48,763 nucleotides of DNA from positions 1-48,763 of IMG/VR virus record IMGVR_UViG_3300020147_000013, one strand, 5' to 3'. The DNA comes from a virus. A program made the position numbers and the translations under genes. Below are positions 607 to 46,132 of this stretch, piece after piece (positions within the stretch are counted from its first letter, which is position 1; each line of letters begins with the position of its first letter). The notes beneath the pieces were generated by a model. That model searched no databases and had not been told where the DNA came from. It worked only from the letters and a program-made list of their open reading frames with translations.

Positions 607-872
607 TGAAACTGCGCGATTACCTTGAAGAGATTAAGACGGAGATGATTACCATCCGTAAGGATCTTAATTATCACATTCACAGAACTGACCTTCTGGA
701 AGAAAAACAGGCTGAGGACGTTAAGCGTCTTAGCGCGAAGCAATCTGAGGACGATAGACACCTTCGTTACCAGATTAAGCCATTGGTAAAGGTGTATCAC
801 TTCTTCCAGATCCTAGGAGCTTTGATAGTAGTCGCGGCGGCAGTCGCGGGAATTATTCGACTGTTTATTTAA
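606..872 (+). CDS. Holin-like or XhlA-like membrane protein (88 aa)
   Basis: Residues 1 to about 60 are charged and predicted coiled coil. The C-terminus (about 66-88) is a single hydrophobic segment (ILGALIVVAAAVAGIIRLFI). A soluble coiled coil with one C-terminal membrane span is the layout of haemolysin XhlA-type and other small phage lysis proteins. The start overlaps the previous stop (TAATG), and the next gene starts at its last base. Its neighbour is a secreted protease, so a role in lysis or envelope disruption is plausible. A purely structural membrane protein is possible too. Confidence 0.5.
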   Translation: MKLRDYLEEIKTEMITIRKDLNYHIHRTDLLEEKQAEDVKRLSAKQSEDDRHLRYQIKPLVKVYHFFQILGALIVVAAAVAGIIRLFI

Positions 873-1507
873 TGAAATTTGCTAAGTTTTTGTTTGGTAT
901 TGCCTTTGTAACTGCGATTAGTCTCGGCGCGCAGATTCAAATTCCTACTAATTTTAGTGGCGGTGTAGCGCTTTTTACAGGAAGCTCCCCTGGCAGCGCA
1001 TATGCGCATTGCTCAGGATCGGTTATAAAGACCGGCTATGTACTGACTGCCGGACATTGTGCGCTAGTAGGACAAAAAGTTTACGTCCAAATCAACAAAC
1101 AACTGCGTCCCGCCGAACTGGTTAAGAACGGTATGAAAGATCCAGTAGGACCTAAGCATTTTGTTGAGTCGAGCGACTGGGCGGTTTTGAAAGTCGACAC
1201 AACAGGGATGGAACCCTTATTGGTTCAGGAACGCGAACCAATTGTAGAACGTGTAGGAATGATGATTAGTAGTAGGCGCGCGTTTCAGCACGCAGTACCA
1301 TTCTTTTTTACTGGGGTTGTGGAAGAAGGATTGGATACGTGGGTATTAGTTGGAACAGTTATACCGGGCGATTCTGGTTCGCCGGTGCTGGACGAAGATC
1401 AATTTATAGTAGGCGTAATGGTTGGACGCGATGTACAGGACGGGCGCGATGTTGGCCTTATGTGTCCGGCTACAGCGTTTGCAGAGTTTGTTAAGGGATT
1501 ACCTTAA
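872..1507 (+). CDS. Secreted trypsin/V8-like serine protease
   Basis: The 211-aa protein begins with a signal peptide: lysines at 2 and 5, hydrophobic 7-19, likely cut after LGA. The full chymotrypsin-fold triad is visible: His62 in LTAGHC, Asp102 in SDWAVL, and Ser168 in GDSGSP. The protein is therefore expected to be an active endopeptidase of the S1 family, acting outside the cytoplasm. The start overlaps the previous stop (TAATG), and the 49-aa membrane gene follows with another TAATG. S1 proteases are rare in phage genomes. Possible roles are degrading periplasmic or outer-membrane proteins at lysis, or processing a virion or host surface protein. The enzyme class is clear; the role is inferred. 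Confidence 0.85.
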   Translation: MKFAKFLFGIAFVTAISLGAQIQIPTNFSGGVALFTGSSPGSAYAHCSGSVIKTGYVLTAGHCALVGQKVYVQINKQLRPAELVKNGMKDPVGPKHFVESSDWAVLKVDTTGMEPLLVQEREPIVERVGMMISSRRAFQHAVPFFFTGVVEEGLDTWVLVGTVIPGDSGSPVLDEDQFIVGVMVGRDVQDGRDVGLMCPATAFAEFVKGLP

Positions 1508-3481: not shown

Positions 3482-3720
3482 TTACGTTTATCCCGCTTCT
3501 TCGGCGCAGTTGTGCGAGCTATTTTTCTGCCGCGATAAAAGGGGTGATCTTCTACTTGGTCTAATTCGATTATTACCAATTCTTCTGATGCATTGAATGA
3601 GTATGAGCAAGCGGCTAAGAACCAACGCAGCCTATTCAACATGTCTGGAAGATCGTCACACTCGAAACTATGTTCAACCTTACTGGTTGGGGATTCTTCT
3701 TGAATGAGTCGGTATTTCAT
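3478..3720 (-). CDS. Hypothetical protein (80 aa)
   Basis: The start at 3720 was chosen because its ATG overlaps the stop of the DUF5664 gene (ATGA). A further in-frame ATG lies five codons upstream. The protein is soluble and acidic in the middle, with a strongly basic tail (KKRDKRK). I do not recognise it. Confidence 0.6.
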   Translation of the reverse strand: MKYRLIQEESPTSKVEHSFECDDLPDMLNRLRWFLAACSYSFNASEELVIIELDQVEDHPFYRGRKIARTTAPKKRDKRK

Positions 3721-4163
3721 TTCTTGTTCTTCCACCTATCGTCCCGCTCAGGACGGTTCTTAGCGATCCACCAACAAATCATCGCGTTTACGGCAATCGA
3801 GGCAAAGTGACTCTCGCCGTGGTCTGAGTCTATGTCCGACTCGAATGCAGAATTGATTTTGGCTTCATGTCGACCAAGCGAGTCCATCCGGCCTTTGACT
3901 GTGACCTTGGGATTGTCGCGCCAATCTTCTTCGGCGTACTTCTTGGTTCCGAAGTCCATTACTTTGGCCATTGCCTGCAGGAAGTCAGGATCAAGGAGAG
4001 ACATTCGGGCTTTGAGCTCAGTAGTTGATACTGGCGCACCAACCTGTATTTCAGTAACCATTGGTGATTTGAAGGCGCAGCACAAATCGCGAGTAGCCCA
4101 ATCTTTTAAGGGACCAAACCAACCGCACTTGTCACATTTGTGCATGTAGGGAGTAGTGCTCAC
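3717..4163 (-). CDS. dATP/dGTP diphosphohydrolase-like (DUF5664/MazG-like) protein with zinc ribbon
   Basis: The N-terminus (about 9-30) carries CDKCGWF and a following CC pair, a zinc-ribbon-like element. From about residue 55 it matches the DUF5664 fold: FGTKKYAEEDW, then GRHEAK, then DHGESHFASIAVNAMICW. These give the acidic/histidine helix bundle shared with MazG-type NTP pyrophosphatases. Such proteins hydrolyse (d)NTPs and can shift nucleotide pools. The GTG start overlaps the previous stop. It sits between the CYTH gene and the phosphoesterase group. Confidence 0.8.
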   Translation of the reverse strand: MSTTPYMHKCDKCGWFGPLKDWATRDLCCAFKSPMVTEIQVGAPVSTTELKARMSLLDPDFLQAMAKVMDFGTKKYAEEDWRDNPKVTVKGRMDSLGRHEAKINSAFESDIDSDHGESHFASIAVNAMICWWIAKNRPERDDRWKNKK

Positions 4164-5134: not shown

Positions 5135-5398
5135 CTAGTTCAGTAGGTGTTTTTCGGGATTGAATTTGGTTGTCAGAAACGCTTTAGCGAGCGTATCGAC
5201 TGTGACCAAATTCAGGTCGTTGTCTTTTAGAAAATCTCTTGCGATCTCGAAGGCCTCAGCCTCGTCGAGATTCATATCAATGAACGTAGCGAATCGGGCT
5301 AAGATTGCTGCCATTGATGCGGCGTCGTCGCCAGTAAACGAAAAGTCTTTCATGCGCACGTAATAGTGACTCGGTACTTTCTTGCTATTGTTGCTCAT
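5135..5398 (-). CDS. Hypothetical acidic helical protein (87 aa)
   Basis: A longer frame from 5482 would overlap the upstream gene heavily. The ATG at 5398 overlaps the GroES-like gene by only 14 nt and begins MSNNSKKV. The body is helical and acidic (MNLDEAEAFEIARDF). No motif is recognised. Confidence 0.6.
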   Translation of the reverse strand: MSNNSKKVPSHYYVRMKDFSFTGDDAASMAAILARFATFIDMNLDEAEAFEIARDFLKDNDLNLVTVDTLAKAFLTTKFNPEKHLLN

Positions 5399-5873
5399 TG
5401 GGGTAAAGAAGCTTATGCATCGTCTGAAAAGCTTCGTTATACTCGTCCACAGTTTCATAAATATATTGAACGTCAGCATCACATGCGATCCCTATGCGCT
5501 TACCTTCGGTAGCTACGATTGGTCCGAAGTAGCTGAGCCACTTTACGTTAAGGCTAACCAAACAAACGTTACCAGGGCGCGCGCGACACGGTGTGATTGC
5601 TCCACACTTACATCCTGTTTGCAGTACTTCGTCGGAACATTCACAGGACTTGTCTCCGGCGTAACCTTGGCCGGTTGCAAGTACGATCACTTCAATTGGT
5701 CTGTTTTGGTCGAACCCGTCTCGAACCTGGCGTGGATCGGTCGCGACCACGAGACTCGATTTTCCATACGTCACTTCAGGCTTCGGAACTTCTTCAACTA
5801 GAATGCAGTCGTCCATGAGGGACAGTTTGTCGGCTACTGCACTGATAATATGAATGTACTCACTCTTCTTCAT
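5385..5873 (-). CDS. GroES-like co-chaperonin candidate with zinc-knuckle insert
   Basis: Residues 16-70 (DKLSLMDDCILVEEV...VIVLATGQGY) and 100-140 (RPGNVCLVSLNV...EGKRIGIACDADVQYIYE) follow the strand order of GroES: an opening 'DR(V/I)xV' strand, a mobile-loop region, 'xVLAxGxG', 'GDxVLV', and a closing 'IxxDSDI'-like strand. Between the halves lies a cysteine insert, CECSDEVLQTGCKCG, also found in two other proteins of this phage. Phages sometimes bring a co-chaperonin for capsid folding, so this is a reasonable reading. Similarity is judged by eye and is weak. It overlaps the recombinase gene by 14 nt. Confidence 0.5.
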   Translation of the reverse strand: MKKSEYIHIISAVADKLSLMDDCILVEEVPKPEVTYGKSSLVVATDPRQVRDGFDQNRPIEVIVLATGQGYAGDKSCECSDEVLQTGCKCGAITPCRARPGNVCLVSLNVKWLSYFGPIVATEGKRIGIACDADVQYIYETVDEYNEAFQTMHKLLYPNEQQ

Positions 5874-6594
5874 TCTTCTCTTTAAGTACCTTTTCGATTC
5901 GCTTCTTACGTCCTGGTACGTAGCTCATAGCCGTACTAATGTCCGACCACCCAGCTACCTCGACCAAGTCGTAAGGGTTGTTGTCTAACAAATTTGAAAT
6001 TCGCGTTAGGCCAATCTTACGTAAGTCGTGCGGCTTTAATCCCGCTTCCTTCTTCAAGATGCGCCAGAAGGATTGGTAGGTGCCTTTGAACTCAGGACCA
6101 GGGATTTTTGGTACATACGCTTGTCGTACCTTCTTACCCTTGCCGGTCACCATACCTTCTTTGAGCGTCAAACTTTCTTCGTATCGAAGTCCCGCGTACA
6201 GGAGCTCCAGAGCCTTTCGCTGGGCCGCTTTATGCTTCATTTGGCGAATCGCCTTAATGGCTTCGTCAAACGATAAGTGGGCCGGGCGGCGCGTGTAGTT
6301 GTTGCGAAACATGAAGCCGAATCTACGTCGGAAGGTCGAATACGGGTTACCTTCAGCCGGATCTACGTGGCCTTCGGTAATGAGCCAGTCGTAGAAACTA
6401 GATACGCGCGTCCACACCGTGTTTCTGGTGTAGGGGGCGAGCTTGCGATTTTCGAGCTCTTCCCACAACTTACGAGGATCGCGGCTATCTAATATACTTG
6501 CTAGTTGCGTTAACCGGTACTTCTCTGACCGGGCCGTATTAGGGCTCCAGTAGGACTTCATCGATTCGAGATATTGTTTAATCAACTCCAGCAT
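5860..6594 (-). CDS. Tyrosine recombinase (R-K-H-R-W-Y type)
   Basis: The N-terminal half is a SAM-like core-binding domain (YLESMKSYWSPNTARSEKYR). The catalytic half has GLRYEES (first Arg), a KGKKVR beta-hairpin lysine, KPHDLRKIG (His and second Arg), GWSD with Trp where most enzymes have His, and SYV (nucleophile Tyr). The same His-to-Trp exchange is known in Cre. The 244-aa size is small. ATG 6594 is preferred over TTG 6633, which lies only 8 nt after the promoter -10. It is driven by its own strong promoter. It may resolve genome multimers or integrate the phage. Confidence 0.85.
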   Translation of the reverse strand: MLELIKQYLESMKSYWSPNTARSEKYRLTQLASILDSRDPRKLWEELENRKLAPYTRNTVWTRVSSFYDWLITEGHVDPAEGNPYSTFRRRFGFMFRNNYTRRPAHLSFDEAIKAIRQMKHKAAQRKALELLYAGLRYEESLTLKEGMVTGKGKKVRQAYVPKIPGPEFKGTYQSFWRILKKEAGLKPHDLRKIGLTRISNLLDNNPYDLVEVAGWSDISTAMSYVPGRKKRIEKVLKEKNEEE

Positions 6595-6641
6595 ATACCC
6601 AACCCCAGCTTGTGGCCGCTTAACTGCGTCCAACTAATAAG

Positions 6642-8548: not shown

Positions 8549-9705
8549 TACAGTTTACTCCGTTTAATCTTCAGCGCATCGTCACCTTTGTAGTAACGAA
8601 GCTCGTATATGTTTCCGTTGGGGAGTCGGATTTTCTTCAACTCGCGGTCAGAAAGTTCCTTCGAAATTTCCTGTTCAAGGCGTTGGCGTTTGGCTTCCTG
8701 AGTCGTCAAGTCCTCATATGCCTCGAACATGTTAATGAGCTCTTCACCGCCCTTGATCCGGTCCAAGTCTTTAGGCCAATTGGTCGGGGGTAGGTTGTTA
8801 TAGAATGCTTTGAGCGCGTCGCGATCGCCCCAGCATTGGTTGGAGTAGGGACAGTAGGCGCACACGATTGAACCAAGCCCATAATCGCGCTCGGCTAACT
8901 CCGGCTTTTTCTGGTCGACTGCAGCATTGACTGTGTTGCACTTGTCGCGAAACGCTTCGAACAATTCCGGAGTAGGTGGGAAGCGAATTTCTAAGTGGCG
9001 CGAGTCGTTCTTACAATAGCGATAGATAAAGCCGTGATCGAAGCCATGCTCCTTGGCCCAGTCGGTGCAAAGATACGAATTTACCTGCCAAAAGTTGTGA
9101 GCGAAAAAGGGATCGTTCAGTTCATCGAGAAACGCAATTAGATCCGGCGCGTACCAGCTTTGTTCGCTAATAGCGACAAGCGACGACATGCCATTGAACT
9201 TAGCCACACTCTCATCCCATTTGGTTCTGTACGCCGCGGAGAACTTATCCTTAACGCTCTTCACGTCACCAATACCGCCAGCGCCACTGACAACCATGGA
9301 TAAGTCGATTGAACCTTCGATGAGCTCAGGCGGGCGAGCTTTGGTTTCGTCTAACCTAAATAGAGTTACGGCTTGCTGTTTGTACTTAACTCGAAACTCT
9401 GGATACAAATCGGGAATGAGTTCGAAGTTACGAATGCTATGCCACTCTACCGAACTGCCAAGGCTAAGAAGCCGCGTAATGTCGGGCTCCTTAACTTCCT
9501 TCGGGTACTTGGCAAAGCCACGAAAGTTCATCAAGTCGTAAGCCAAACGGCGCGTGCAGTATCCGGCGCTTGATGGTCGAAGGGGGAAGTAATCTTCACG
9601 CTCCGCCGCTTCCTTGGCGTTCTTCGTGAGAACTTCATCAATCATGTCTGTATAGCCCTTAGCCGGGCCAGGGATAACTAACTTTTTGGTTTTCTTTTTA
9701 GCCAC
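8548..9705 (-). CDS. Cas4/RecB-like PD-(D/E)XK exonuclease with Fe-S type cysteines
   Basis: The 385-aa protein has an N-terminal lysine-rich start, then SSAGYCTRRLAYDL with the first cysteine. The catalytic region follows: GSIDLS (Asp) and GIGDVKSVK (D-x-K). The C-terminal cysteine cluster is VCAYCPYSNQCW. One early Cys plus three late Cys around a PD-(D/E)XK core is the Cas4/AddB-like arrangement that holds a 4Fe-4S cluster. In phages such proteins serve as recombination exonucleases. It lies upstream of the OB-like protein, consistent with an exonuclease/ssDNA-binding pair. There is no CRISPR context. Confidence 0.8.
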   Translation of the reverse strand: MAKKKTKKLVIPGPAKGYTDMIDEVLTKNAKEAAEREDYFPLRPSSAGYCTRRLAYDLMNFRGFAKYPKEVKEPDITRLLSLGSSVEWHSIRNFELIPDLYPEFRVKYKQQAVTLFRLDETKARPPELIEGSIDLSMVVSGAGGIGDVKSVKDKFSAAYRTKWDESVAKFNGMSSLVAISEQSWYAPDLIAFLDELNDPFFAHNFWQVNSYLCTDWAKEHGFDHGFIYRYCKNDSRHLEIRFPPTPELFEAFRDKCNTVNAAVDQKKPELAERDYGLGSIVCAYCPYSNQCWGDRDALKAFYNNLPPTNWPKDLDRIKGGEELINMFEAYEDLTTQEAKRQRLEQEISKELSDRELKKIRLPNGNIYELRYYKGDDALKIKRSKL

Positions 9706-10310
9706 TAGTCTCTGTACTCTAAAACGGTGTCAGCAAGGCCCAGGTCTACGGCTTCTTGTGCACTCAGGATTGTGTCGATCTTCAGTAACTCTTGAATCTT
9801 TTCCCGCGAGAAGTTGGGATGCTTTTCGTAGATGCGTTCGAGATAAATATCCTCGAACTTTCTATCCATCTTCTTTGACTCGTCCGCCCAACGATAAACC
9901 GTCTGAGGGTTGTCGCTGATACTCAGGTGACCATAGTGGAGCATGATGCGAGCATTCGGGGCGACTACACGATGAGAGGCAGCTTGAAGGATCAAGCTTC
10001 CCATGCTGTAAGCCGCCCCGTACACGACGACATTCACGGGGTTCTTGCAGGACCTTATGGCATCGTAGATTGCCAGCCCGTGATCCTTGTCTCCCCCTGG
10101 GGTATTGAGGAGAACAGTGATGGGTTTTTTTCCACTTGGCTCTAGCAGGTCGAGGGCCAAGAGCGATTTAATGGCTTGTTCAGCCATTGAAAAGTCTACG
10201 CCAGCATCTTGTTCATGTAGATTCGAAATACTCCCGAGATAGATAATCCGAGAGATAGGATCTACATTCAACTGTAGCCAACTAGCCAAATCTATCTTTT
10301 GTTTAGCCAT
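9705..10310 (-). CDS. ClpP-like (S14) serine protease
   Basis: The 201-aa protein shows ClpP hallmarks: LNTPGGD, the nucleophile Ser near 103 in AAYSMGS, the His near 128 in IMLHYGH, and a late EAVDLGLAD segment. In phages this family normally matures the prohead and sits beside the portal or capsid gene. Here it is in the early replication operon, more than 20 kb from the capsid genes and on the other strand. Either the maturation protease has moved, or this enzyme acts on host or regulatory proteins. It shares one base with the nuclease gene. Confidence 0.85.
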   Translation of the reverse strand: MAKQKIDLASWLQLNVDPISRIIYLGSISNLHEQDAGVDFSMAEQAIKSLLALDLLEPSGKKPITVLLNTPGGDKDHGLAIYDAIRSCKNPVNVVVYGAAYSMGSLILQAASHRVVAPNARIMLHYGHLSISDNPQTVYRWADESKKMDRKFEDIYLERIYEKHPNFSREKIQELLKIDTILSAQEAVDLGLADTVLEYRD

Positions 10311-16163: not shown

Positions 16164-16452
16164 TGGTTACTTCTTCGGCTTCTTCAACTTCTCGATAATC
16201 AGGCATCGGCGCAGAGAGATATTTCATATCAGGATCATTTAAATAGATTTCGTTTCTTACTTCTTTGTCCGCATCGTACGCTTCATCAATTTCATTATAT
16301 GCTTCGTAACAACGACAGTTTCCATTTCCATCCAGTAACCATTCGTTCTGGACTTTTGAACAAGTGAACTCACAAGCGAGCTCATCGTCGTAAGACGATC
16401 CATAAGCTGCCGCCGTAAAGAGAATCGCGCTAACCAAAATAAAGAACTTCAT
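16156..16452 (-). CDS. Secreted small acidic protein (98 aa)
   Basis: ATG 16452 overlaps the previous stop (TAATG). A clear signal peptide (KFFILVSAILFTAAAYG, cut near AYG|SS) is followed by four cysteines (ACEFTCSK and CRCYEA) and a long acidic tail rich in Glu, Asp and Tyr. It should be periplasmic. I recognise no family. Confidence 0.65.
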   Translation of the reverse strand: MKFFILVSAILFTAAAYGSSYDDELACEFTCSKVQNEWLLDGNGNCRCYEAYNEIDEAYDADKEVRNEIYLNDPDMKYLSAPMPDYREVEEAEEVTNE

Positions 16453-16736
16453 TAATCTCTGTACCTCGTAATATGTCCGCAAGTGCATCCCGACTGAAGG
16501 AGTAAGTGTGTGGCGCAGGTGCAGCGCGAGATTACTTGGGTTTGGGTGTCGTCGAACCAATCATCGAACCAATATAGCCATTGACCAGATACGCCAGTAA
16601 TTGAATCGGGACTATTCTCGCGCTGATACAGCACGTGAAATATGTTTCTGGCAACGTCTGCGTCGACTAATGTGTAAATATTGTTCCCCACGACATATGG
16701 AACACCAAGTCGCATCTTGTTCGCAGGTAATTCCAT
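16452..16736 (-). CDS. CxC/GCxCG zinc-knuckle protein, paralogue of 25989-26345
   Basis: The ATG at 16736 has GGAG eight bases upstream; an earlier ATG at 16757 overlaps the previous gene. The 94-aa protein has a KMRLGVPYVVG start region, a WLYWFDDWFDD segment, and a C-terminal CTCATHLLLQSGCTCGH motif. The same motif occurs in the GroES-like protein and in the protein upstream of the amidotransferase stop, which also shares the 'GxPY ... DWF' layout. It probably binds zinc. Confidence 0.6.
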   Translation of the reverse strand: MELPANKMRLGVPYVVGNNIYTLVDADVARNIFHVLYQRENSPDSITGVSGQWLYWFDDWFDDTQTQVISRCTCATHLLLQSGCTCGHITRYRD

Positions 16737-16740
16737 GCCA

Positions 16741-16887
16741 CTAGCTCCGCTCACCATTTCGCAACTGAATCACTCGCAACTGTTCAATCAATTGCTGCAA
16801 GCGCGCCTTTTCGGCCTCAGTGATTTGCCTGGTCGTCTGCTTAAATTGCAACGAATAAATCTCTTTACGCAATTGTTGTTCGTCCAT
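16741..16887 (-). CDS. Small helical protein (48 aa)
   Basis: The protein is MDEQQLRKEIYSLQ, a Gln/Arg/Leu-rich helix, then NGERS. GGGAGAAG lies upstream of the ATG. It is a predicted coiled coil with no other feature, and it fits the gap between its neighbours exactly. Confidence 0.55.
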   Translation of the reverse strand: MDEQQLRKEIYSLQFKQTTRQITEAEKARLQQLIEQLRVIQLRNGERS

Positions 16888-21794: not shown

Positions 21795-22913
21795 ATGCCA
21801 TACGAAGTTAAGAAGCGGTATACTCGCGCCGATGGCTCAGTATGTTGGCGCGTCGTCTTTAACAACTGGACCAAGTCAGTCCGTGAACAAACGTCGGTGA
21901 AAGTCTCCGACTATATTCATATTGGTTTGAGGCCGGAAATGGCTTACGACGAGGCCAAGTCGGTAGTGCGCAGCTATAACGCCGGCAAGGCCGCGGAGTC
22001 GAGAGAGTTACGGATACTTAAGACACGCGACCGCTTGAGGGACGAACAGGCCACACTCTCGGCTTACTTCCCAGCGCCGCTTCTAGCCGCCTTTGAGCTC
22101 GAACTTCCACCCGACGGGAAAACCCGCTCATACTGGCGCGCCGCTCAGAGGGTAATTGCCCACATAAAGATCGAACCGCCCGATTGGCGCCGCCGAGCGG
22201 AGACGATTTATCACTACCTGGAAGAACGCGAAACGTCCTTGAGCTACACAAAAAAGATTATTGGCCTCATGAATCGCTGGGGAGAGTTCTGGGCCTACAA
22301 AACAGGCCGCCCATTTCTTCCTTTGAAGCCGCCCACTGGCAAATGGTTCTTTAGGATAGAGAACGCGTACCGAAGGTCCTCGAAGCCGGAGCGTGAAGCC
22401 GCGCCGATTTCCCCTGGCGACTTGGAAACGGCGCGATCGAAGCTCAAACCCGAACACTACAACTTTTTCTTTATTACGCTTTGGCTTGGGCTTAGACCAC
22501 ATGAGCTACATAACACTCGCAAGGGGGAAGGTAAGAATTGGTTTATTGAGAAGCAAGAAGGACTAGAGGTACTTGCGATTTATCAAACCAAGATTGAAAC
22601 CAAAGTAGTCGAACACCTGCGCTGGAAGCGTATTCCCTTGCTATTCCAAGAACAGCGCGCAGCCGTAGACTGCATACGTCGCGGCGCTTGGGCACAGCCA
22701 CTTAATAAGACGGGTGCTCTACATATCAAGGAAGGAGTGAAGGGTTACTCAGGCCGTAATGGTTTTGAGCCTCTCATGCACTCGCTGGGCCGGAGCTTCA
22801 TGGAGATTTCAATTTGGTTGGGGCATACGAGTCCCAGGACTACGTTTCAGAATTATCGCGAAGAAGGTAGAGTGTTTTTGGATGCGCCACATGATAAGAA
22901 GCGAAAGTCTTGA
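21795..22913 (+). CDS. Tyrosine recombinase/integrase with altered box II
   Basis: The 372-aa protein has an N-terminal DNA-binding part, a helical core-binding domain, and a catalytic domain with LWLGLRPHELH (first Arg near 233). Box II reads YSGRNGF, with Tyr where His is normal before the second Arg. It keeps WLGHTSPRTT (His) and ends with the nucleophile region FQNYRE (Tyr near 354). It should still be able to cut DNA, but the HxxR change is unusual. The ATG follows AAGGGGGTTAAG. It ends at a terminator shared with the convergent operon. It could be the integrase, and no attachment core can be identified here. Confidence 0.8.
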   Translation: MPYEVKKRYTRADGSVCWRVVFNNWTKSVREQTSVKVSDYIHIGLRPEMAYDEAKSVVRSYNAGKAAESRELRILKTRDRLRDEQATLSAYFPAPLLAAFELELPPDGKTRSYWRAAQRVIAHIKIEPPDWRRRAETIYHYLEERETSLSYTKKIIGLMNRWGEFWAYKTGRPFLPLKPPTGKWFFRIENAYRRSSKPEREAAPISPGDLETARSKLKPEHYNFFFITLWLGLRPHELHNTRKGEGKNWFIEKQEGLEVLAIYQTKIETKVVEHLRWKRIPLLFQEQRAAVDCIRRGAWAQPLNKTGALHIKEGVKGYSGRNGFEPLMHSLGRSFMEISIWLGHTSPRTTFQNYREEGRVFLDAPHDKKRKS

Positions 22914-22945: not shown

Positions 22946-22978
22946 AAAGGCACTCAAAGGCGCGAAGTGAGTGCTTTT
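22946..22978. terminator. Rho-independent terminator after the recombinase
   Basis: Stem GCACTCA (22950-22956) / TGAGTGC (22968-22974) with an 11-base loop. It is followed by TTTT and preceded by AAAG on the other side, so it could work in both directions between the convergent genes. Confidence 0.65.
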
Positions 22979-23405
22979 AGTTCAATTCCCTTACTCTGCG
23001 CGGCACTCGCTGATACTTCAACTTCTCATCCAGCTTCTCACCCAACTCACGCCCAGCATAGAACCCATCGCCGCTTACCCCAAACGCCTGCGGCAAACTT
23101 TGAATGGTTTCCCGCTCGATCCGACCTTCAAATTGTTTGTAATAAGCGATGATAGTACCGCGGCGATTAGGGGCTAACGTCATGATTTTAAAGCGATTTA
23201 GCTGCGGATTTACAAAGCAGACATAGTGACCAACCGGAAGCTTATCAATATCCACTCCAGCCTTGCGAGCAATTTCAAGGAGTCCTTCATGTCCATTACG
23301 CAAGTCGACATTCAATATAACCTGCGCGAGCCGCCCAGAGTGCCCACTAACAACCCGACCTACGTCAGGTTTACGAATAATACCCTTACCTTTATCTTTC
23401 CCCAT
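22977..23405 (-). CDS. Hypothetical protein paired with the HTH gene (142 aa)
   Basis: It overlaps the end of the HTH gene by 14 nt. The N-terminus is basic (GKDKGKGIIRKP). The middle has VGHYVCFVNPQLNRFKIM and the end is charged. The pairing and shape recall accessory proteins encoded beside transposase-like HTH proteins, but no known family is clearly matched. An ATG at 23414 is an alternative start. Confidence 0.6.
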   Translation of the reverse strand: MGKDKGKGIIRKPDVGRVVSGHSGRLAQVILNVDLRNGHEGLLEIARKAGVDIDKLPVGHYVCFVNPQLNRFKIMTLAPNRRGTIIAYYKQFEGRIERETIQSLPQAFGVSGDGFYAGRELGEKLDEKLKYQRVPRRVRELN

Positions 23406-23826
23406 CATCCACATCCATGTTCAATGCTAGTTCGATCAGCCTTTGCTGTTTTTCTAACATATCCAGGATGCGACTGCGATGATCTCGTGCAGAGCCAGAA
23501 TGGTTGTTGTTGTTGTGACCGTTCCGCGGAGCTCCGTCGGTACTAGCTTCTAGCTCGTCCAACTTCACTTTGAGTGCAGGCATGATACGTTCTGCGATTT
23601 CTTGCGGGGAACGCTTGTTAGGATTGAGTCTGCGCGCTTCGGGCTTAGCGTAATGTTTACCGGCGCGGTGCGCCTTCCACCAATTGTAGATCGAGAGATT
23701 GACGCCCGCCGCTCTGCAAGCATCTTTGAGGTTCATTGGCTTCTTGCCTTTTCCCCCGGCGCGGAGTGCATCGACACGCTTGACCATTTCGTCTTTTTGT
23801 TCTGGTGAGTATTTATTAACTGGCAT
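23392..23826 (-). CDS. Transposase-type helix-turn-helix DNA-binding protein (144 aa)
   Basis: ATG 23826 has GGAGG just upstream. Residues 4-55 (KYSPEQKDEMVKRVDAL...LKDACRAAGVNLSIYNWWK) are the HTH of IS3/Tn3-type transposase orfA-like regulators. A polar region with NNNN and a C-terminal coiled coil (ILDMLEKQQRLIELAL) follow. There is no catalytic domain, so it is more likely a phage regulator. It may be the factor that binds the TGTTAGTTG elements, but this is only a guess. Confidence 0.65.
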   Translation of the reverse strand: MPVNKYSPEQKDEMVKRVDALRAGGKGKKPMNLKDACRAAGVNLSIYNWWKAHRAGKHYAKPEARRLNPNKRSPQEIAERIMPALKVKLDELEASTDGAPRNGHNNNNHSGSARDHRSRILDMLEKQQRLIELALNMDVDDGER

Positions 23827-23912
23827 TAATCCTCCAAATATGGCACTGCGCATTCTAGGGGATCATGTTAGCACTGTCTAGTATGCAAATTATGTCGCCA
23901 GCTTATACACTC

Positions 23913-24416: not shown

Positions 24417-24638
24417 CAGAATTGTTAGATGGTTGATAGTTAAGACTAACCAAGGCAAGGCGACGTTTGTTAGTTAGGCGAGGGGTACGGGTACCATCAG
24501 ACTGCGCGACGCCGTATAAACGAAATTAGACGGGTAGCGGCGGTATCAGGCTGGAACGCTCCGCGTGGATAGATTGATATTGGTTATGTGCAGGTAATTA
24601 AAAGATAGGCCAGTTGGCTTTAACAACGGAATAGTAAT

Positions 24639-24691
24639 TAAAAAGGCCGGATACCTAGGGAATGAGAGGGAACCCTAGATACCCGGGCCTT
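24639..24691 (-). terminator. Terminator of the amidoligase operon
   Basis: On the minus strand a long hairpin forms between AAGGCCCGGGTATCTAGGG and CCCTAGGTATCCGGCCTT. It is nearly perfect, with one bulge and one or two mismatches, and is followed by a run of T. It lies just past the last gene of the 30271-24736 operon. Confidence 0.75.
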
Positions 24692-24735
24692 CGTGGGCTG
24701 GGGGTGTTAGCGTGGGAGCTAACTCGCTTTGGGAA

Positions 24736-25047
24736 CTATCGGCGCTCGCCTAAAATAAAATCTAGTAACATATTACCAATCTGTTCTCCGTCTCCGTGCC
24801 CGTACTCCGCGATCCACACCTCAGTATAATTATCCATTAGGTATGAACCGCCCTTGTAACCTTCATAGAATTTATTTACGGCAGACCGCGCAGCGTCTAG
24901 CATATCCCCTACGGTTGTATTTTCCTTTGGTTCGAATGCAAGTTGATCATAGTAACCGCGATATGAATGCGGATTATGAAACCCATGCTTAATTTTTCTA
25001 TCACGCGGGTAATTTTCTAGACGCGCGATTAGCTGCTGTAGGTTCAT
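24736..25047 (-). CDS. Conserved phage hypothetical (103 aa)
   Basis: It contains the HSYRGYYDQLAFEP stretch followed by NTTVGDMLDAARSAVNKFYEGYKGG, a pattern seen in many phage proteins of unknown function. It is soluble and acidic at the end. It is the last gene of the amidoligase operon, three bases after the first C-terminal-module paralogue. Confidence 0.7.
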   Translation of the reverse strand: MNLQQLIARLENYPRDRKIKHGFHNPHSYRGYYDQLAFEPKENTTVGDMLDAARSAVNKFYEGYKGGSYLMDNYTEVWIAEYGHGDGEQIGNMLLDFILGERR

Positions 25048-25049
25048 AC

Positions 25050-25349
25050 TTAACCCGCCTTTCGCTTATCAAGATACTCAATCACATTAGTCAAACCCAA
25101 CTCCATCGCCACATTCCTAATTTCGTCAACCAAGGGGATCGTGGAACCGAATTCGTCGACTAATCGAAGGTTAGGGTTAAATGCGGTTAGACAATCTGTT
25201 CTAGACCACTGACCTTCGTTGCCACGCAGGCTACGACAACGCACCGTAGAATTACTGACTTTAATAAACTCATAGAACCAAACGCGGTCTACTACGAACG
25301 CCGCAACCGTTCCGACCGGCTTATCTATAAAATATTGTTCGACGTTCAT
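25050..25349 (-). CDS. C-terminal-module paralogue 1 (99 aa, ends EYLDKRKAG)
   Basis: Shares with its two upstream neighbours an N-terminal 'PVG(T/S)' turn followed by a 'W/Y-E-(F/I/V)-(I/V)-K' strand, a variable middle, and a conserved C-terminal module of about 26 residues (EIRNVAMELGLTNVIEYLDKR) ending in Gly. The DNA of the modules differs at many third positions, so the protein end is kept by selection. No family is recognised. It may be a substrate or partner of the amidoligase encoded upstream; that is inference. Confidence 0.7.
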   Translation of the reverse strand: MNVEQYFIDKPVGTVAAFVVDRVWFYEFIKVSNSTVRCRSLRGNEGQWSRTDCLTAFNPNLRLVDEFGSTIPLVDEIRNVAMELGLTNVIEYLDKRKAG

Positions 25350-25354
25350 ATTGG

Positions 25355-25651
25355 TTAACCAACTCTCCGCTTATCTAAATACTCAAGTACGCGCGTTAGA
25401 CCATGCTCCGTTGCGACGTCGCGAATTTCTTCGACCAAACTGCGCGGCGGTCCCGGGATTAGGTAATCAACCAGGGTCCAATACTTATCCAGATTATCAA
25501 CAAAATGCTTACTATAACATTCCAGATAATACTGTTGACCGCCTATGCGACGCTCAATGTGTTGAGTATCGCTAATCTTGATTACTTCCCACATACTATG
25601 TCCGCCGCTCATGATAGCTAGAGAACCGACTGGAAGATCTTTGTATTCCAT
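25355..25651 (-). CDS. C-terminal-module paralogue 2 (98 aa, ends EYLDKRRVG)
   Basis: It opens KDLPVGSLAIMSGGH with a WEVIKIS strand, and ends EEIRDVATEHGLTRVLEYL then DKRRVG. Same organisation as the genes on either side, separated by only a few bases. The middle is rich in Tyr and His. No enzyme motif is visible. Confidence 0.7.
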   Translation of the reverse strand: MEYKDLPVGSLAIMSGGHSMWEVIKISDTQHIERRIGGQQYYLECYSKHFVDNLDKYWTLVDYLIPGPPRSLVEEIRDVATEHGLTRVLEYLDKRRVG

Positions 25652-25654
25652 AAT

Positions 25655-25996
25655 TCACCCAACTCTCCGTTTATCTAAATATTCAATCACATTCTGCAAT
25701 CCAAACTCCTTAGCAACGGCGCGAATTTCGTCCTCAAGGGGAACGGGAACGTAGTTATAGGGAATGTAATCAATCAAGCAATACTCATAATCTTCCCACA
25801 CATAGAATTCTATAGGTCCGCGAAAATCATCTGAATACACGCTATTTCGAAACCGCCACACACAAGTCTTACGAGAATATTTTACAATTTCGTATTCAGA
25901 ACGCACGCCGTACGCAACACTATAGGCATAGATAACCGAACCAACCGGCAACGCATTCAATGCCTCACGTACTGAAGTGAATTCACTGTTATCCAT
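25655..25996 (-). CDS. C-terminal-module paralogue 3 (113 aa, ends EYLDKRRVG)
   Basis: The longest of the three: a short N-terminal extension, then ALPVGSVIYAYSVAYG, a YEIVKYSRKT strand, a tyrosine-rich middle, and the module DEIRAVAKEFGLQNVIEYL then DKRRVG. It overlaps the zinc-knuckle gene upstream by 8 nt. The last six residues are identical to paralogue 2. Confidence 0.7.
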   Translation of the reverse strand: MDNSEFTSVREALNALPVGSVIYAYSVAYGVRSEYEIVKYSRKTCVWRFRNSVYSDDFRGPIEFYVWEDYEYCLIDYIPYNYVPVPLEDEIRAVAKEFGLQNVIEYLDKRRVG

Positions 25997-26345
25997 AATT
26001 CACCCTCTGTTCATACGGCACAATCGCGCCACACTTGCATCCATGCTGAAACACCGCGAGCGTGTCACATTTACATGGATCATTCGCCACGCTGGTTGAC
26101 GCTGACGCGGAGCCCGAATTGGTTACCGTAGGCGTTTCGAACCAATCGCTAACGGTAAATTCGCGATCTAGATCCCATCGCACACCACGATTGAAAACGT
26201 TGTGGCCGTATTCAATACTCCCTGATACGATCGTTGCCTTAGTACTCTGTTTTCCGTACTTCGATACCCGCATTAGCCACATACTCCCATCGGCGGATAG
26301 GTATGGAATGCCGTACTTCATATTCCTGAGTTTAATATTCTTCAT
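25989..26345 (-). CDS. CxC/GCxCG zinc-knuckle protein (118 aa)
   Basis: It opens with YGIPYLSADGSMWLMRV and has a FTVSDWFETP segment, a Ser/Ala linker, and then CKCDTLAVFQHGCKCGAIV. The same cysteine motif occurs in the GroES-like protein and the 16452-16736 protein; the latter also shares the overall order. It ends in Tyr-Gly. Its start overlaps the amidotransferase stop (ATGA), so the two are co-translated. Confidence 0.7.
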   Translation of the reverse strand: MKNIKLRNMKYGIPYLSADGSMWLMRVSKYGKQSTKATIVSGSIEYGHNVFNRGVRWDLDREFTVSDWFETPTVTNSGSASASTSVANDPCKCDTLAVFQHGCKCGAIVPYEQRVNYG

Positions 26346-27436
26346 ACATCGTCTCCCGTTCCATACCGAGCCAAACGATTATCAATCAGCGCACGGTCAG
26401 CATCGTCGAACTCATCATCATCTTCAGTCAGCGCATCGATCTCAACCATTTCGGCAACTGTCAATCCGGTATCAGGATCGACGTACTCGCCTTCAATCAA
26501 CTTAGCATCGTCGCCACGGTATCCTTCATACGTCGAAGGAATACGATCAACTCCCATAACGCGATCCAAGTATTCGTTTTCTTCACGTTCCCATTGATTT
26601 TGGTTAGCGTTCCAGCGCGTGCCGTAATTCACCTTGGGATTGAAGTTTTCCATTGTAATACCAATCGCAGTCTTGGCGTCGACACGCGCGAGTTTTCCAT
26701 CAGCAACTTCGAAGATCTTGCCTGCTTTGAAGCCGGACGCCTTGCAAGCACGTTCAATGATATCCTCAGTTGTCGCGAATACGATTGCATCCAATGCAGC
26801 AACGTATGAGAGAACCAAGTTAGCGCCGCTATTCCTGAAAATATCCATAACCCAGCGACCGTGACCGTCTTTGGTTAACACCGCGCACGCGAACCAGCCT
26901 TCGAGGTTAGGTATCATTTCGCCTATATTCTTAGGCGTCTTATCAACATCGTAATCCAAGTATTCATTGAGGATTGTTTCACTATCACAATCGGAATACT
27001 TCTTAACCAACTGCGCGTGGTTGCTAATCATTCCATTGTGGATTAGCGCGGTATCGCCACTGACAAACGGATGCGTATTGGTTACATTGATCGCGCCCGT
27101 TGTTGCCATGCGGGTATGAAGGATTACCGCGCTGGTATCGGCGAAACTCTTATCAATGGTTCCGAATGAGTTGTATCCCGCCGCACCAGGAACTATTTCC
27201 AGAATTGACTTGAGTTTTCTCACTTCATTGGTTTCAAGCGTTAGGTCAATGCGGTGTTTGAACGCGTCCGCATTCTTAACCCATCGCTCGCCACACAATC
27301 CGGTTGAGTTGATTGCAGCGTAACCTAGACCGTGGTTATCGCGCACACTCATTACTTCGGCGGCGTTCTTAATGAACGTCTTAAGAGCTTTTCTGTTGGT
27401 TTTCTTAACACCAGCAACAGCAAGTACTTTACACAT
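26342..27436 (-). CDS. Class II glutamine amidotransferase (Ntn type)
   Basis: Catalytic Cys2 follows the initiator Met (MCKVLAVAGV), as required for an N-terminal nucleophile. Other marks are HTRMATTG, NTHPF, ALIHNGMISNH and DCDSETILNEYLD, the glutamine-binding and oxyanion residues of GATase II. The domain covers about residues 2-240. A C-terminal extension rich in Asp/Glu (ALTEDDDEFDDADRAL) replaces the synthase or isomerase domain of GlmS/PurF. So it releases ammonia from glutamine for another protein, most likely the amidoligase just upstream. GAGAGG lies eight bases before the ATG. Confidence 0.9.
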   Translation of the reverse strand: MCKVLAVAGVKKTNRKALKTFIKNAAEVMSVRDNHGLGYAAINSTGLCGERWVKNADAFKHRIDLTLETNEVRKLKSILEIVPGAAGYNSFGTIDKSFADTSAVILHTRMATTGAINVTNTHPFVSGDTALIHNGMISNHAQLVKKYSDCDSETILNEYLDYDVDKTPKNIGEMIPNLEGWFACAVLTKDGHGRWVMDIFRNSGANLVLSYVAALDAIVFATTEDIIERACKASGFKAGKIFEVADGKLARVDAKTAIGITMENFNPKVNYGTRWNANQNQWEREENEYLDRVMGVDRIPSTYEGYRGDDAKLIEGEYVDPDTGLTVAEMVEIDALTEDDDEFDDADRALIDNRLARYGTGDDV

Positions 27437-27469
27437 TTTATTTACCTCTCATTTATTAGTTTGGAACTA

Positions 27470-28915
27470 TTAAGCGACTTCGCTCATTTCGTGCGTATCC
27501 TCGACCGGCCGGTTTTCTGGATTGATCCAGTCAACCGACGTAGGCGAAAACTTAGCTAATCGACTTTGAACGTACTGATATAGTTCGGGAGACAATCGCG
27601 GCGCATACTTGGCTAGAATTTCGCGCGCCGTATATGTAATTGGATGATTTAGGGCTTCATATACGGGGCGTCGCGTGTGCGCGACAACGTGTAACAAACT
27701 AATCCAATTTAGAATTTTGTTAGCGTTGATAGTTCCAGAATGCACGCGTACTTCAATTGTCTTAAGGTCCCGATAGGACGCGCCGTTGATTACACGGTAT
27801 CGATGGTCAGCGCGACCTAATAGATAACCATCGCGATCGTCGTTATTAAACGTATTACGCATGCAATAATGGTTACCTTCCTGACGAGACTTTGGTTGCA
27901 TCGCGATTAGCAGATCCTGCGCGTAACAAAGCCTTTCATACATACTCTGCGGCGTCGTTCCCGCTATTCCCATAGCCTCAGGACGCGCATCCAGGTGGAC
28001 GTGAAACCCACATGATTTATTTACGTCGCATCCCGTTTCAGTGAGTTTCGCGCACAATTCTCGGATAACAGGTTCCAACTCTTTAACAGGAATGATTGCA
28101 GTTACCTCGTGTCCATACCAGCCACGTGTGGCGTTTGGATCGTAACCACAATCGCATTCGTGGCTATATTCGCAGTCTTCATCGCTGCAGTCTTGACCAT
28201 CGGCACATAGTTCCGAGCATTCGCATTCTTCGGGCCCGTTATCCTCGCCGCGCGGTAACGAAATACTCCCGTCCGACTTAACATGGATATAGTCAGCACA
28301 ATCTAGCTTGGCTAACTCACGGTTGAATTTGGTTCGGGTTAGTTGGTTGAACAATTCCAACTCAATCCCAACATACTGTTCATTAGGTCGACCGCTAGGA
28401 GTTTTCTCATTCTCGATAATTCGCGCCTTTCGCTGTTTCAAACTATCAATTGCATCGGCAAGCTTGATAGGCCCGTCTAGAGTTACAGAATATTCTTCAC
28501 CTAACTTAGACTTAGTCGTAATCTGCAGCGTCTCATTATACGAACCAATATTACGTTTCAACTCGCTCTTTACATCGCGCATTCGACTATCTAATTGCAG
28601 GCGTTGACGCACGCTATGATTAGCGCCGATTAGTTTCGCAACGTCTTTTAACAACTTTCGATCATCCAAAGCCTTTTTAACCTTGGCTTTGTCGCCACGC
28701 CGCGATTGTGTTTCACGCGTAATGGTTAGGTTCCCAACTTTAGTTTGTTTCGTGCTCACGTCCTCATTCTCCTTTTTATTTTTCCAATTCCCATAATAGG
28801 CAGACTCAATCCAGGTTTGGGCGGACTCGAAGTCTACTATCCACTCGCCGCCCGAGCTTTGTGCTAAATAGTTATAAATAATTCTAGTGTTCGAATTGTC
28901 GTTGTTGTTCGGCAT
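27470..28915 (-). CDS. Amidoligase (COOH-NH2 ligase, PF12224-like) with Cys-rich insert
   Basis: The 481-aa protein has a charged helical N-terminus and the glutamine-synthetase-like amidoligase core: EQYVGIELELF near 183, HVKSDGSI near 215, HEVTAIIP, SCGFHVHLDAR near 305, and KTIEVRVHSGT then NWISLLH. An insert between the DGS strand and HEVT strand has seven Cys (CECSELC, QDCSDEDCE, HECDC), probably a metal site. Family members make amide bonds at carboxylates of peptides or small molecules using ATP. Paired with a GATase II, ammonia may be its nitrogen source. GAGGA precedes the ATG. Confidence 0.88.
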   Translation of the reverse strand: MPNNNDNSNTRIIYNYLAQSSGGEWIVDFESAQTWIESAYYGNWKNKKENEDVSTKQTKVGNLTITRETQSRRGDKAKVKKALDDRKLLKDVAKLIGANHSVRQRLQLDSRMRDVKSELKRNIGSYNETLQITTKSKLGEEYSVTLDGPIKLADAIDSLKQRKARIIENEKTPSGRPNEQYVGIELELFNQLTRTKFNRELAKLDCADYIHVKSDGSISLPRGEDNGPEECECSELCADGQDCSDEDCEYSHECDCGYDPNATRGWYGHEVTAIIPVKELEPVIRELCAKLTETGCDVNKSCGFHVHLDARPEAMGIAGTTPQSMYERLCYAQDLLIAMQPKSRQEGNHYCMRNTFNNDDRDGYLLGRADHRYRVINGASYRDLKTIEVRVHSGTINANKILNWISLLHVVAHTRRPVYEALNHPITYTAREILAKYAPRLSPELYQYVQSRLAKFSPTSVDWINPENRPVEDTHEMSEVA

Positions 28916-29063
28916 TCATATCCTCGCAATCAAACAATTCTAGTTCCCACCGTGTTTCCAATTCATCCAATCGCTCCGCGTATGCTTCATTAGTTTCAAG
29001 CGATACTTGGTCCGCATACACTGACCAGATTGCATAGAATGTTTTCAACTTCAGACTATTCAC
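28884..29063 (-). CDS. Small acidic helical protein (59 aa)
   Basis: The GTG start overlaps the previous stop (GTGAATAG), and the end overlaps the amidoligase start by 32 nt. The protein is helical with many Glu, Trp and Leu (YAERLDELETRWELELF). It may be a small subunit of the system; no family is recognised. Confidence 0.5.
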   Translation of the reverse strand: MNSLKLKTFYAIWSVYADQVSLETNEAYAERLDELETRWELELFDCEDMNAEQQRQFEH

Positions 29064-40684: not shown

Positions 40685-40984
40685 ATGGCCAATAAGCGTA
40701 GTGGAAATACGTTCTATATTGATACCGAATACGAAGGGGCTGACGATGAGTTGGCGCTTCCTTGTCGAGTTACGTCGATTATCGTTTCAGCTACCACCGC
40801 TGACGCTGAAGTGGTTCTAGCAGACGGTGCACTTGCAACTAAATTGGATCTGAGAGTTGCAACTGATGGTACCACACAAATTTTCGATTTTTCTCAATCT
40901 CCGATCGTTTTTACGTCGAGTATCCGACCCACAACCCTAACGAACGCGGTTGTGACGTGCGTACTTCGCGAAAGTAAAGGTTAA
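40685..40984 (+). CDS. Small beta-rich virion protein (99 aa)
   Basis: It directly abuts the previous stop. Beta strands alternate (RVTSIIVSATTADAEVVLAD, TQIFDFSQSPIVFTS, NAVVTCVLRES). It resembles the 39154-39465 protein in size and style, so the two may be related minor virion proteins. Confidence 0.6.
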   Translation: MANKRSGNTFYIDTEYEGADDELALPCRVTSIIVSATTADAEVVLADGALATKLDLRVATDGTTQIFDFSQSPIVFTSSIRPTTLTNAVVTCVLRESKG

Positions 40985-45040: not shown

Positions 45041-46132
45041 ATGCCTGCATTTTCTAGTATAGCCCTTGGCGTAGCTGGCCTTGGGGCCGGAGCCGTATCC
45101 GGCGCGATGGGTAAGCGTAGAGAAGATTCTTCTGGAATTACCCTTTCAGCGGCCTCTGACACAGAGACAGGTGCCCTTGGTTTACAGAACCGTGGAATGG
45201 CTGGGTTGGAAGATCTGACCAATGCCGGACCTGGGTTGTCCGATGTTCAGAATGCTACTTCGGCTGGACGTAGTTTCTCGTCCATGTTGGAAGAGTATTC
45301 TCGTACCGGCGGTATCCCCACTGCCGATGATATCTCTACTGGTAACAATCTTGCTGGCGGCCTTTTTAATCAACGCCGCACCCAACTCGAACAAAACTTT
45401 AATGATCAAAATACTGAAGCTAGTCGCCTTGCTGCGCGACTTGGCCGCGGTGTCGACGATCCTATTATTCAAGCGAAACTCCGTACTGGTTTCATGAAAG
45501 ACCAGGCCCTTCTGGATGCTGAGCAATCCGACTATGGTAATACTATTGCGATGAATCTCCCGGGCGCGCGCCTCGGATATGCCCAACAGAACGTTGGACT
45601 TCTTGATTCTATGGCAGCCAAAGCTTTTAGTAACCGCGCAGCGATTACAGCACTTGGTTCGAACATAGTGAACTCGGAACGGAACTTTAGACTACAAACC
45701 GGCGAACGTTGGGGTAAGTCTCAACAGGGCGGCGGTCTTGGCGATGCACTGACTGGCGGTATTGCTGGCCTCGGCGCAGGTCTTGGCATGGCTGATAACA
45801 TTGCGGGACTCTTCCCCGGAAGCCCGCCCCCTGGAGTTTCTGGATATGGTCCGACCGCTCCAGGCTCTTCTACGGGAATTGGTTCCCTTGGAGCTTGGTC
45901 CGGAGCTAGTCCCGGCGCGGTAAGCCGTGGCATATCTGGATTTGGTCCTACCATCCCCGGAGCTACAACCGGATTTGGTTCACAAGGTCCCTATAGTGGC
46001 GGTGGAAATACCACGGGCTTAACGTTCGACGGTATGAGTATATCGCCTTCCCCTGTTGGCCCTGCGGCCGCATCGGGATTTGGTCCTTCGTCTGTTTGGA
46101 GTTTCTTACAACGAATGGGAACACGAGGTTAA
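45041..46132 (+). CDS. Internal virion protein with Gly/Pro/Ser repeats (363 aa)
   Basis: The N-terminus is hydrophobic and glycine-rich (SIALGVAGLGAGAVSGAMG). A helical middle (NQRRTQLEQNFNDQNTEASR) is followed by a hydrophobic glycine block. The C-terminal third has repeats SGYGPTAPGSSTGIGS / SGFGPTIPGATTGFGS / SGFGPSS. Proteins of this composition in this position are minor internal or ejection proteins in podoviruses. Confidence 0.65.
   Translation: MPAFSSIALGVAGLGAGAVSGAMGKRREDSSGITLSAASDTETGALGLQNRGMAGLEDLTNAGPGLSDVQNATSAGRSFSSMLEEYSRTGGIPTADDISTGNNLAGGLFNQRRTQLEQNFNDQNTEASRLAARLGRGVDDPIIQAKLRTGFMKDQALLDAEQSDYGNTIAMNLPGARLGYAQQNVGLLDSMAAKAFSNRAAITALGSNIVNSERNFRLQTGERWGKSQQGGGLGDALTGGIAGLGAGLGMADNIAGLFPGSPPPGVSGYGPTAPGSSTGIGSLGAWSGASPGAVSRGISGFGPTIPGATTGFGSQGPYSGGGNTTGLTFDGMSISPSPVGPAAASGFGPSSVWSFLQRMGTRG

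Follow-up and report, generated by a model that had tools for sequence, protein, structure and literature searches.

A widespread phage amidoligase/glutamine amidotransferase gene pair with a putative substrate, most likely accompanied by passenger genes

Why does a tailed phage carry an amidoligase beside a free-standing glutamine amidotransferase, and do the small proteins encoded behind these enzymes belong to the same system? The question is raised by a minus-strand locus in IMG/VR virus record IMGVR_UViG_3300020147_000013, a viral DNA of 48.8 kb (48,763 nt) whose whole length is called the window here. Its other genes include those for a portal/head-tail connector, a DNA polymerase, a primase and a Phage_capsid_4/Mu gpT-type capsid protein. 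An earlier interpretation made from the letters alone (the sequence-only reading) saw in the locus an amidation or tagging system, with three small paralogues, here B1, B2 and B3, as its substrates, tags or targeting subunits. The analysis described below points elsewhere: the locus is a real but ordinary phage cassette of a known kind with a putative substrate, and the small genes beside it are most likely passengers. It is considered mostly ordinary because the enzyme pair is widespread and B1–B3 were found in none of the other pair-bearing phages examined. The two enzymes are encoded as follows.

27470..28915, minus strand: Amidoligase_2 (PF12224) enzyme, 481 amino acids (aa), Pfam E 4.1e-16
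26342..27436, minus strand: stand-alone class II glutamine amidotransferase (GATase) of 364 aa whose C-terminal tail is acidic, Pfam GATase_6 E 5.9e-9

The amidoligase matched PF12224, as the sequence-only reading had proposed, with a score of 60 bits where the cut-off is 22. Its core spans approximately residues 180–410, and eleven residues were found to be invariant across nine aligned phage ligases (G183, E185, E187, D215, E229, H305, H307, R344, N377, E388 and R390), among them the metal/ATP-site motifs expected of a GCS-like ligase, namely ExE (E185/E187), HxH (H305/H307) and ExR (E388/R390). The core motifs are split by an insert with at least seven cysteines (approximately residues 229–262, CECSELCADGQDCSDEDCEYSHECDC), which was observed at that position in none of the eight aligned relatives. 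At least two C-x1-3-C pairs are present in 59 of the 88 amidoligase open reading frames (ORFs) at GATase loci; Cys-rich, probably metal-binding parts are thus common in these ligases, and the insert is a variation on a theme. The AlphaFold model of the protein was poor (predicted local distance difference test, pLDDT, 49), and its PDB fold matches, HMG-CoA reductase among them, reached template modelling (TM) scores of only about 0.12 and were discarded.

The GATase matched GATase_6 and GATase_4 (E 5.6e-6), both above their cut-offs, and its sequence can be aligned to that of the GATase domain in GlmS. The catalytic set is present as Cys2, Arg109, Asn134-Gly135 and Asp151, which correspond to Cys1, Arg73, Asn98-Gly99 and Asp123 in the GlmS numbering. 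No synthase-type domain was detected by Pfam even at E <= 1, and the NCBIfam matches cover just the GATase portion of GlmS, PurF and AsnB, confirming the earlier description of a class II GATase devoid of a synthase domain. Judged by sequence, both enzymes look functional.

How common is this pair? A GATase alignment was used to collect 80 GATase loci from IMG/VR viral contigs, representing 35 clusters at 60% identity. An amidoligase was found near the GATase in 74 of the 80 loci, equivalent to 34 of the 35 clusters, and the ligase-first, same-strand arrangement was found in 29 clusters. Linkage on this scale implies that the two enzymes share a pathway; together with the intact active-site residues, it upholds the earlier proposal of a ligase–GATase pairing and supports the prediction that they form a functional unit. 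It is also consistent with use of GATase-derived ammonia by the ligase for amidation. A separate arrangement of the pair, with the two genes on opposite strands and often within approximately 1 kb, was seen in about one third of the loci; it was the sole layout in just three of the 35 clusters. Genes recurring beside the pair encode ATP-grasp, COOH-NH2 ligase and class I GATase-like proteins and apparently structural or replication proteins, and no small protein constantly linked to the pair was found across the surveyed loci.

The pair is not new, but a widespread and already described gene pair. The idea of a cassette is credited by later authors to Iyer et al. in 2009. A larger version was named the phage "peptidoglycan modification cassette", with the full set occurring in RIO-1-like, phiEco32, PA11 and LUZ24-like phages; its proposed role is to alter peptidoglycan as a defence against superinfection (PMC5498523). 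A gene table of the cassette (PMC3890496) and further published context (PMC11318856) are also available. RIO-1/PSA-HP1, phiEco32, PA11 (Paundecimvirus) and LUZ24/PaP3/tf share Amidoligase_2 and a class II GATase among their early or replication genes. To these they add a COOH-NH2 ligase (PF14395), an ATP-grasp protein and often a gamma-glutamyl cyclotransferase, whereas the window lacks all three: PF14395, ATP-grasp and PF06094 were not detected in it by the same searches that matched other records. Among annotated phages, the full cassette is present in Alcaligenes phage QDWS535, Pseudomonas phage K4 and DMTU_1, and shorter forms in Salgado and ctUh1700. The Arthrobacter phage Salgado group (Laroyevirus) resembles the window in its adjacent amidoligase and GATase genes but differs in having a neighbouring gene of the gamma-glutamyl cyclotransferase (GGACT) type. 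The Manatee Spring phage ctUh1700 (MW202637), like the window, is without PF14395, ATP-grasp and PF06094. A ligase and GATase have also been reported in the OM43 phages MEP401 and MEP402, which were compared with the window on these two genes alone (PMC10580990).

The window therefore contains the two-gene cassette, an Amidoligase_2 gene adjoining that of a stand-alone class II GATase, and not the full set. This is a frequent state: COOH-NH2 ligase and ATP-grasp were both undetected in 57 of the 80 IMG/VR loci, a figure obtained with profiles grown from single seeds and limited to the retrieved flanks, so that the additional ligases may be undercounted. These loci, ctUh1700 and the OM43 phages carry the same two enzymes, usually with the ligase first as in the window, with only approximately 20–26% identity between the proteins, and B1–B3 are in none of them. 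Within its own lineage the pair is not fixed. Among annotated phages the window is closest to Manatee Spring phage ct7ZZ929 (42–43% portal identity), and PF12224 was found in 0 of 21 portal-related records including this complete genome; most of the 21 are short fragments, with ct7ZZ929 and two contigs of 46.0 and 35.7 kb as the three informative ones. The pair is accordingly best seen as an accessory module.

What might the pair do? With moderate confidence, we favour the explanation that the locus represents the phage amidoligase/GATase cassette in its common two-gene form, which would amidate a small carboxylate or peptide, with phage-specific passenger genes added. The GATase, by its conserved residues, would hydrolyse glutamine at the N-terminal Cys2 to ammonia and glutamate, and the Amidoligase_2 enzyme, by its family, would activate a carboxylate with ATP and metal and couple it to an amine or to the ammonia from the GATase. 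The substrate is most likely, by analogy, a small peptide or host wall precursor; a cell-envelope precursor such as the peptidoglycan stem peptide would fit the proposal made for phiEco32/RIO-1-type phages. The phage would have gained the two genes as an accessory module lying within an operon. Several points weigh against this explanation. Substrate, product and interaction of the enzymes are putative, and the peptidoglycan target is a published inference, on which no experiment was found in the publications consulted. Use of the ammonia by the ligase is likewise a prediction, to which independent action of the GATase is the alternative. Finally, B1–B3 share a tight unit with the enzymes, which leaves room for a lineage-specific role alongside them. 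The matter is of some general importance, since the pair is so widespread in phages, yet no experimental test of its substrate was found in the publications consulted; a two-gene example that lacks the additional ligases offers a simple system for finding its product. The small paralogues add little to this unless they can be tied to the enzymes.

It is possible, but rather unlikely, that the pair instead modifies host proteins or other phage proteins, by amino-acid addition or side-chain amidation, to aid takeover, with the Cys-rich insert of the ligase binding the protein target. Such a role has been proposed for phage peptide-ligase families, namely the ATP-grasp R2K family, and the frequency of Cys-rich, probably metal-binding parts in the amidoligases would suit it. 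However, the gamma-glutamyl cyclotransferase and COOH-NH2 ligase genes of the wider cassette better suit small gamma-glutamyl peptides, and the protein target is hypothetical.

Separate action of the two enzymes, in which the GATase would be a glutaminase or deamidase while the ligase would use an amino acid as amine donor, is considered unlikely. The opposite-strand layout described above speaks for it, although few clusters have that layout alone, and the linkage of the two genes in 34 of the 35 GATase clusters argues for a shared pathway instead.

The amidation or tagging system of the sequence-only reading concerns the remainder of the operon. A run of minus-strand genes extends from approximately 30.3 kb down to 24.7 kb, and within it the order is amidoligase, GATase, four-cysteine protein, B1, B2, B3, a phrog_12889 gene and a terminator. 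The enzyme genes are separated by 33 nt, and the gaps from the GATase gene through the last gene range from -8 to +5 nt, which agrees with the tight coupling noted earlier. The remaining features are as follows.

28884..29063, minus strand: 59-aa ORF with a GTG start at the 5' end of the stretch 24736-29063, sharing 32 nt with the beginning of the amidoligase gene; no family match
25989..26345, minus strand: four-cysteine protein, 118 aa, with CxC-x8-GCxCGxIxxY near the C-terminus, recognised from its sequence, a paralogue and a homologue in another contig
25655..25996, minus strand: small paralogue B1, 113 aa, C-terminus KRRVG, blastp E 5e-13 against B2 and 1e-11 against B3
25355..25651, minus strand: small paralogue B2, 98 aa, C-terminus KRRVG, assigned by blastp paralogy
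25050..25349, minus strand: small paralogue B3, 99 aa, C-terminus KRKAG, assigned by blastp paralogy
24736..25047, minus strand: final gene before the terminator, 103 aa, of the function-unassigned phrog_12889 family (E 9.7e-23)
24637..24692, minus strand: strong intrinsic terminator, made up of a long GC-rich hairpin and a trailing UUUUU (folding energy -30.4 kcal/mol, z -4.96)
16452..16757, minus strand: paralogue of the four-cysteine protein, 101 aa, with CTCATHLLLQSGCTCGHITRYRD at the C-terminus, outside the operon and 9 kb away

In the tagging proposal, the ligase would act on the C-termini (RVG or KAG) of B1–B3 with GATase ammonia, giving modified tags or C-terminal amides. Two observations favour it. 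B1–B3 lie in the same tight transcription unit as the enzymes, and they are indeed, as had been claimed, three small paralogues with a conserved C-terminus, each ending in Gly. Their paralogy was established by blastp (the third pair at E 3e-11), with 36–40% identity over approximately 100 aa for two of the pairs and, for B1 and B3, 72% over the last 29 aa. Over the last 27 codons, the proportion of synonymous differences (pS, 0.61–0.79) greatly exceeds that of nonsynonymous differences (pN, about 0.20), indicating that the C-terminus, the most conserved part, has been kept by selection at the protein level.

The distribution of B1–B3 speaks against the proposal. A survey of gene neighbourhoods revealed no co-occurrence with the ligase, the outcome that the sequence-only reading had itself named as refuting: B1–B3 were found in 0 of the 80 GATase loci, and no convincing match was obtained in 11 other records carrying a ligase or GATase. 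The suggestion that they are substrates, tags or targeting subunits thus finds no support. No credible homologue was found among 50,697 phage records (with B2 searched to E <= 10), none in the 21 portal relatives, and nothing detectable in IMG/VR or GTDB contigs; B1 had no family match in Pfam, PHROG or NCBIfam. The profile used for B1–B3 returned three strong hits in the window and therefore works. B1–B3 accordingly constitute an orphan family, within the limited sensitivity of these searches to distant relatives. A match of the profile to Bacillus 035JT001 (E 6e-4) was rejected as noise, as it contains five in-frame stops.

Features of the C-termini also count against the tagging proposal. 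In the low-confidence AlphaFold model of B1 (pLDDT 54), the N-terminal part is rich in beta structure and the C-terminal part has two helices, with pLDDT of about 75–80 at residues 91–110 and about 48 for the final three residues, which places the C-terminus in a two-helix element and not in a long flexible tag; PDB fold matches of this model were discarded owing to its quality. The terminal codons are CGG AGA GTT GGG in B1, CGG AGA GTT GGT in B2 and CGA AAG GCG GGT in B3, and the next start codon follows 2–5 nt past each stop codon, so that the terminal Gly codons fall within the ribosome-binding region of the next gene. By eye, B1 and B3 end in a fair match to a Shine-Dalgarno sequence and B2 in a weak one. 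Gly also ends the four-cysteine protein and the products of two structural genes (40685-40984 and 45041-46132). Given this overlap and these unrelated Gly-ending genes, the shared Gly is weak evidence for a tag. Pup/PafA tagging resembles the proposal in the idea of an ATP-dependent carboxylate–amine ligase working with a small protein, but its ligase family differs from that in the window, and the B proteins do not co-occur with ligases. Pup ends in GG-Q/E, whereas B1–B3 end in RVG, RVG and KAG. Neither the terminus nor the ligase co-occurrence of a Pup-like system is thus seen in B1–B3.

Taken together, these results make the tagging system very improbable. A related idea, in which B1–B3 would be dedicated lineage-specific partners or acceptors (a carrier or tag set), with the ligase recognising the C-terminal two-helix element and fast-evolving N-termini choosing the targets, must be regarded as highly doubtful. 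The four-cysteine protein, B1–B3 and the phrog_12889 protein are most likely phage-specific or unrelated passengers of the operon and not required parts. Synthesis of a modified nucleotide or DNA base by the pair is hardly credible: amidotransferases do occur in some DNA-modification pathways, and the window encodes the N-terminal domain of a dATP/dGTP diphosphohydrolase, a nucleotide-pool enzyme (3717-4163, minus strand, PF18909, E 4.4e-19), but a Pfam scan of window proteins, which covered part of the ORFs, revealed no other base-modification enzyme.

The four-cysteine protein had been labelled a zinc-knuckle protein. Its motif (CKCDTLAVFQHGCKCG) is CxC-x8-GCxCG and not the CCHC pattern C-x2-C-x4-H-x4-C, and the label is not retained. 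Membership of the ligase system is not supported either, as its paralogue lies outside the operon and a homologue (L041, 2979-3308, minus strand) lies in a 14-kb viral contig fragment without PF12224. With the four-cysteine protein, the B alignment or the single amidoligase as queries, no usable related loci were obtained in viral contigs. The motif CxC-x7/8-GCxCGxI is present in the L041 protein and in three window proteins, all on the minus strand (25989-26345, 16452-16757 and 5385-5873); the first two window proteins are related over more of their length, and the third is otherwise unrelated. The motif may represent a small metal-binding tail that several phage proteins have in common. When IMG/VR was scanned for it with a degenerate DNA pattern, two hits only were returned, one of them a real relative. 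Three further matches were rejected: Matrilin_ccoil (E 3e-4, below the cut-off) is taken as a coincidence arising from the CxC motif, the Rogunavirus "head morphogenesis" match is judged to be due to chance, as the Rogue1 protein lacks the motif, and so is an Erwinia phage match, which on inspection was on the strand opposite the annotated genes.

The phrog_12889 protein is unrelated to B1–B3 and has homologues in unrelated large phages. Downstream of the operon, two ORFs at 22977-23853 (minus strand) matched transposase-type families weakly (HTH_Tnp_1, E 6e-5, slightly below the cut-off, and TnpB_IS66, E 0.006). The window also encodes two proteases, one of the trypsin-like serine type and one of the ClpP type (872-1507, plus strand, and 9705-10310, minus strand). 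Two matches to the phage integrase family phrog_1, at 5860-6633 (minus strand, E 4e-12) and 21795-22913 (plus strand, E 1e-6), suggest recombinases and possibly a temperate phage.

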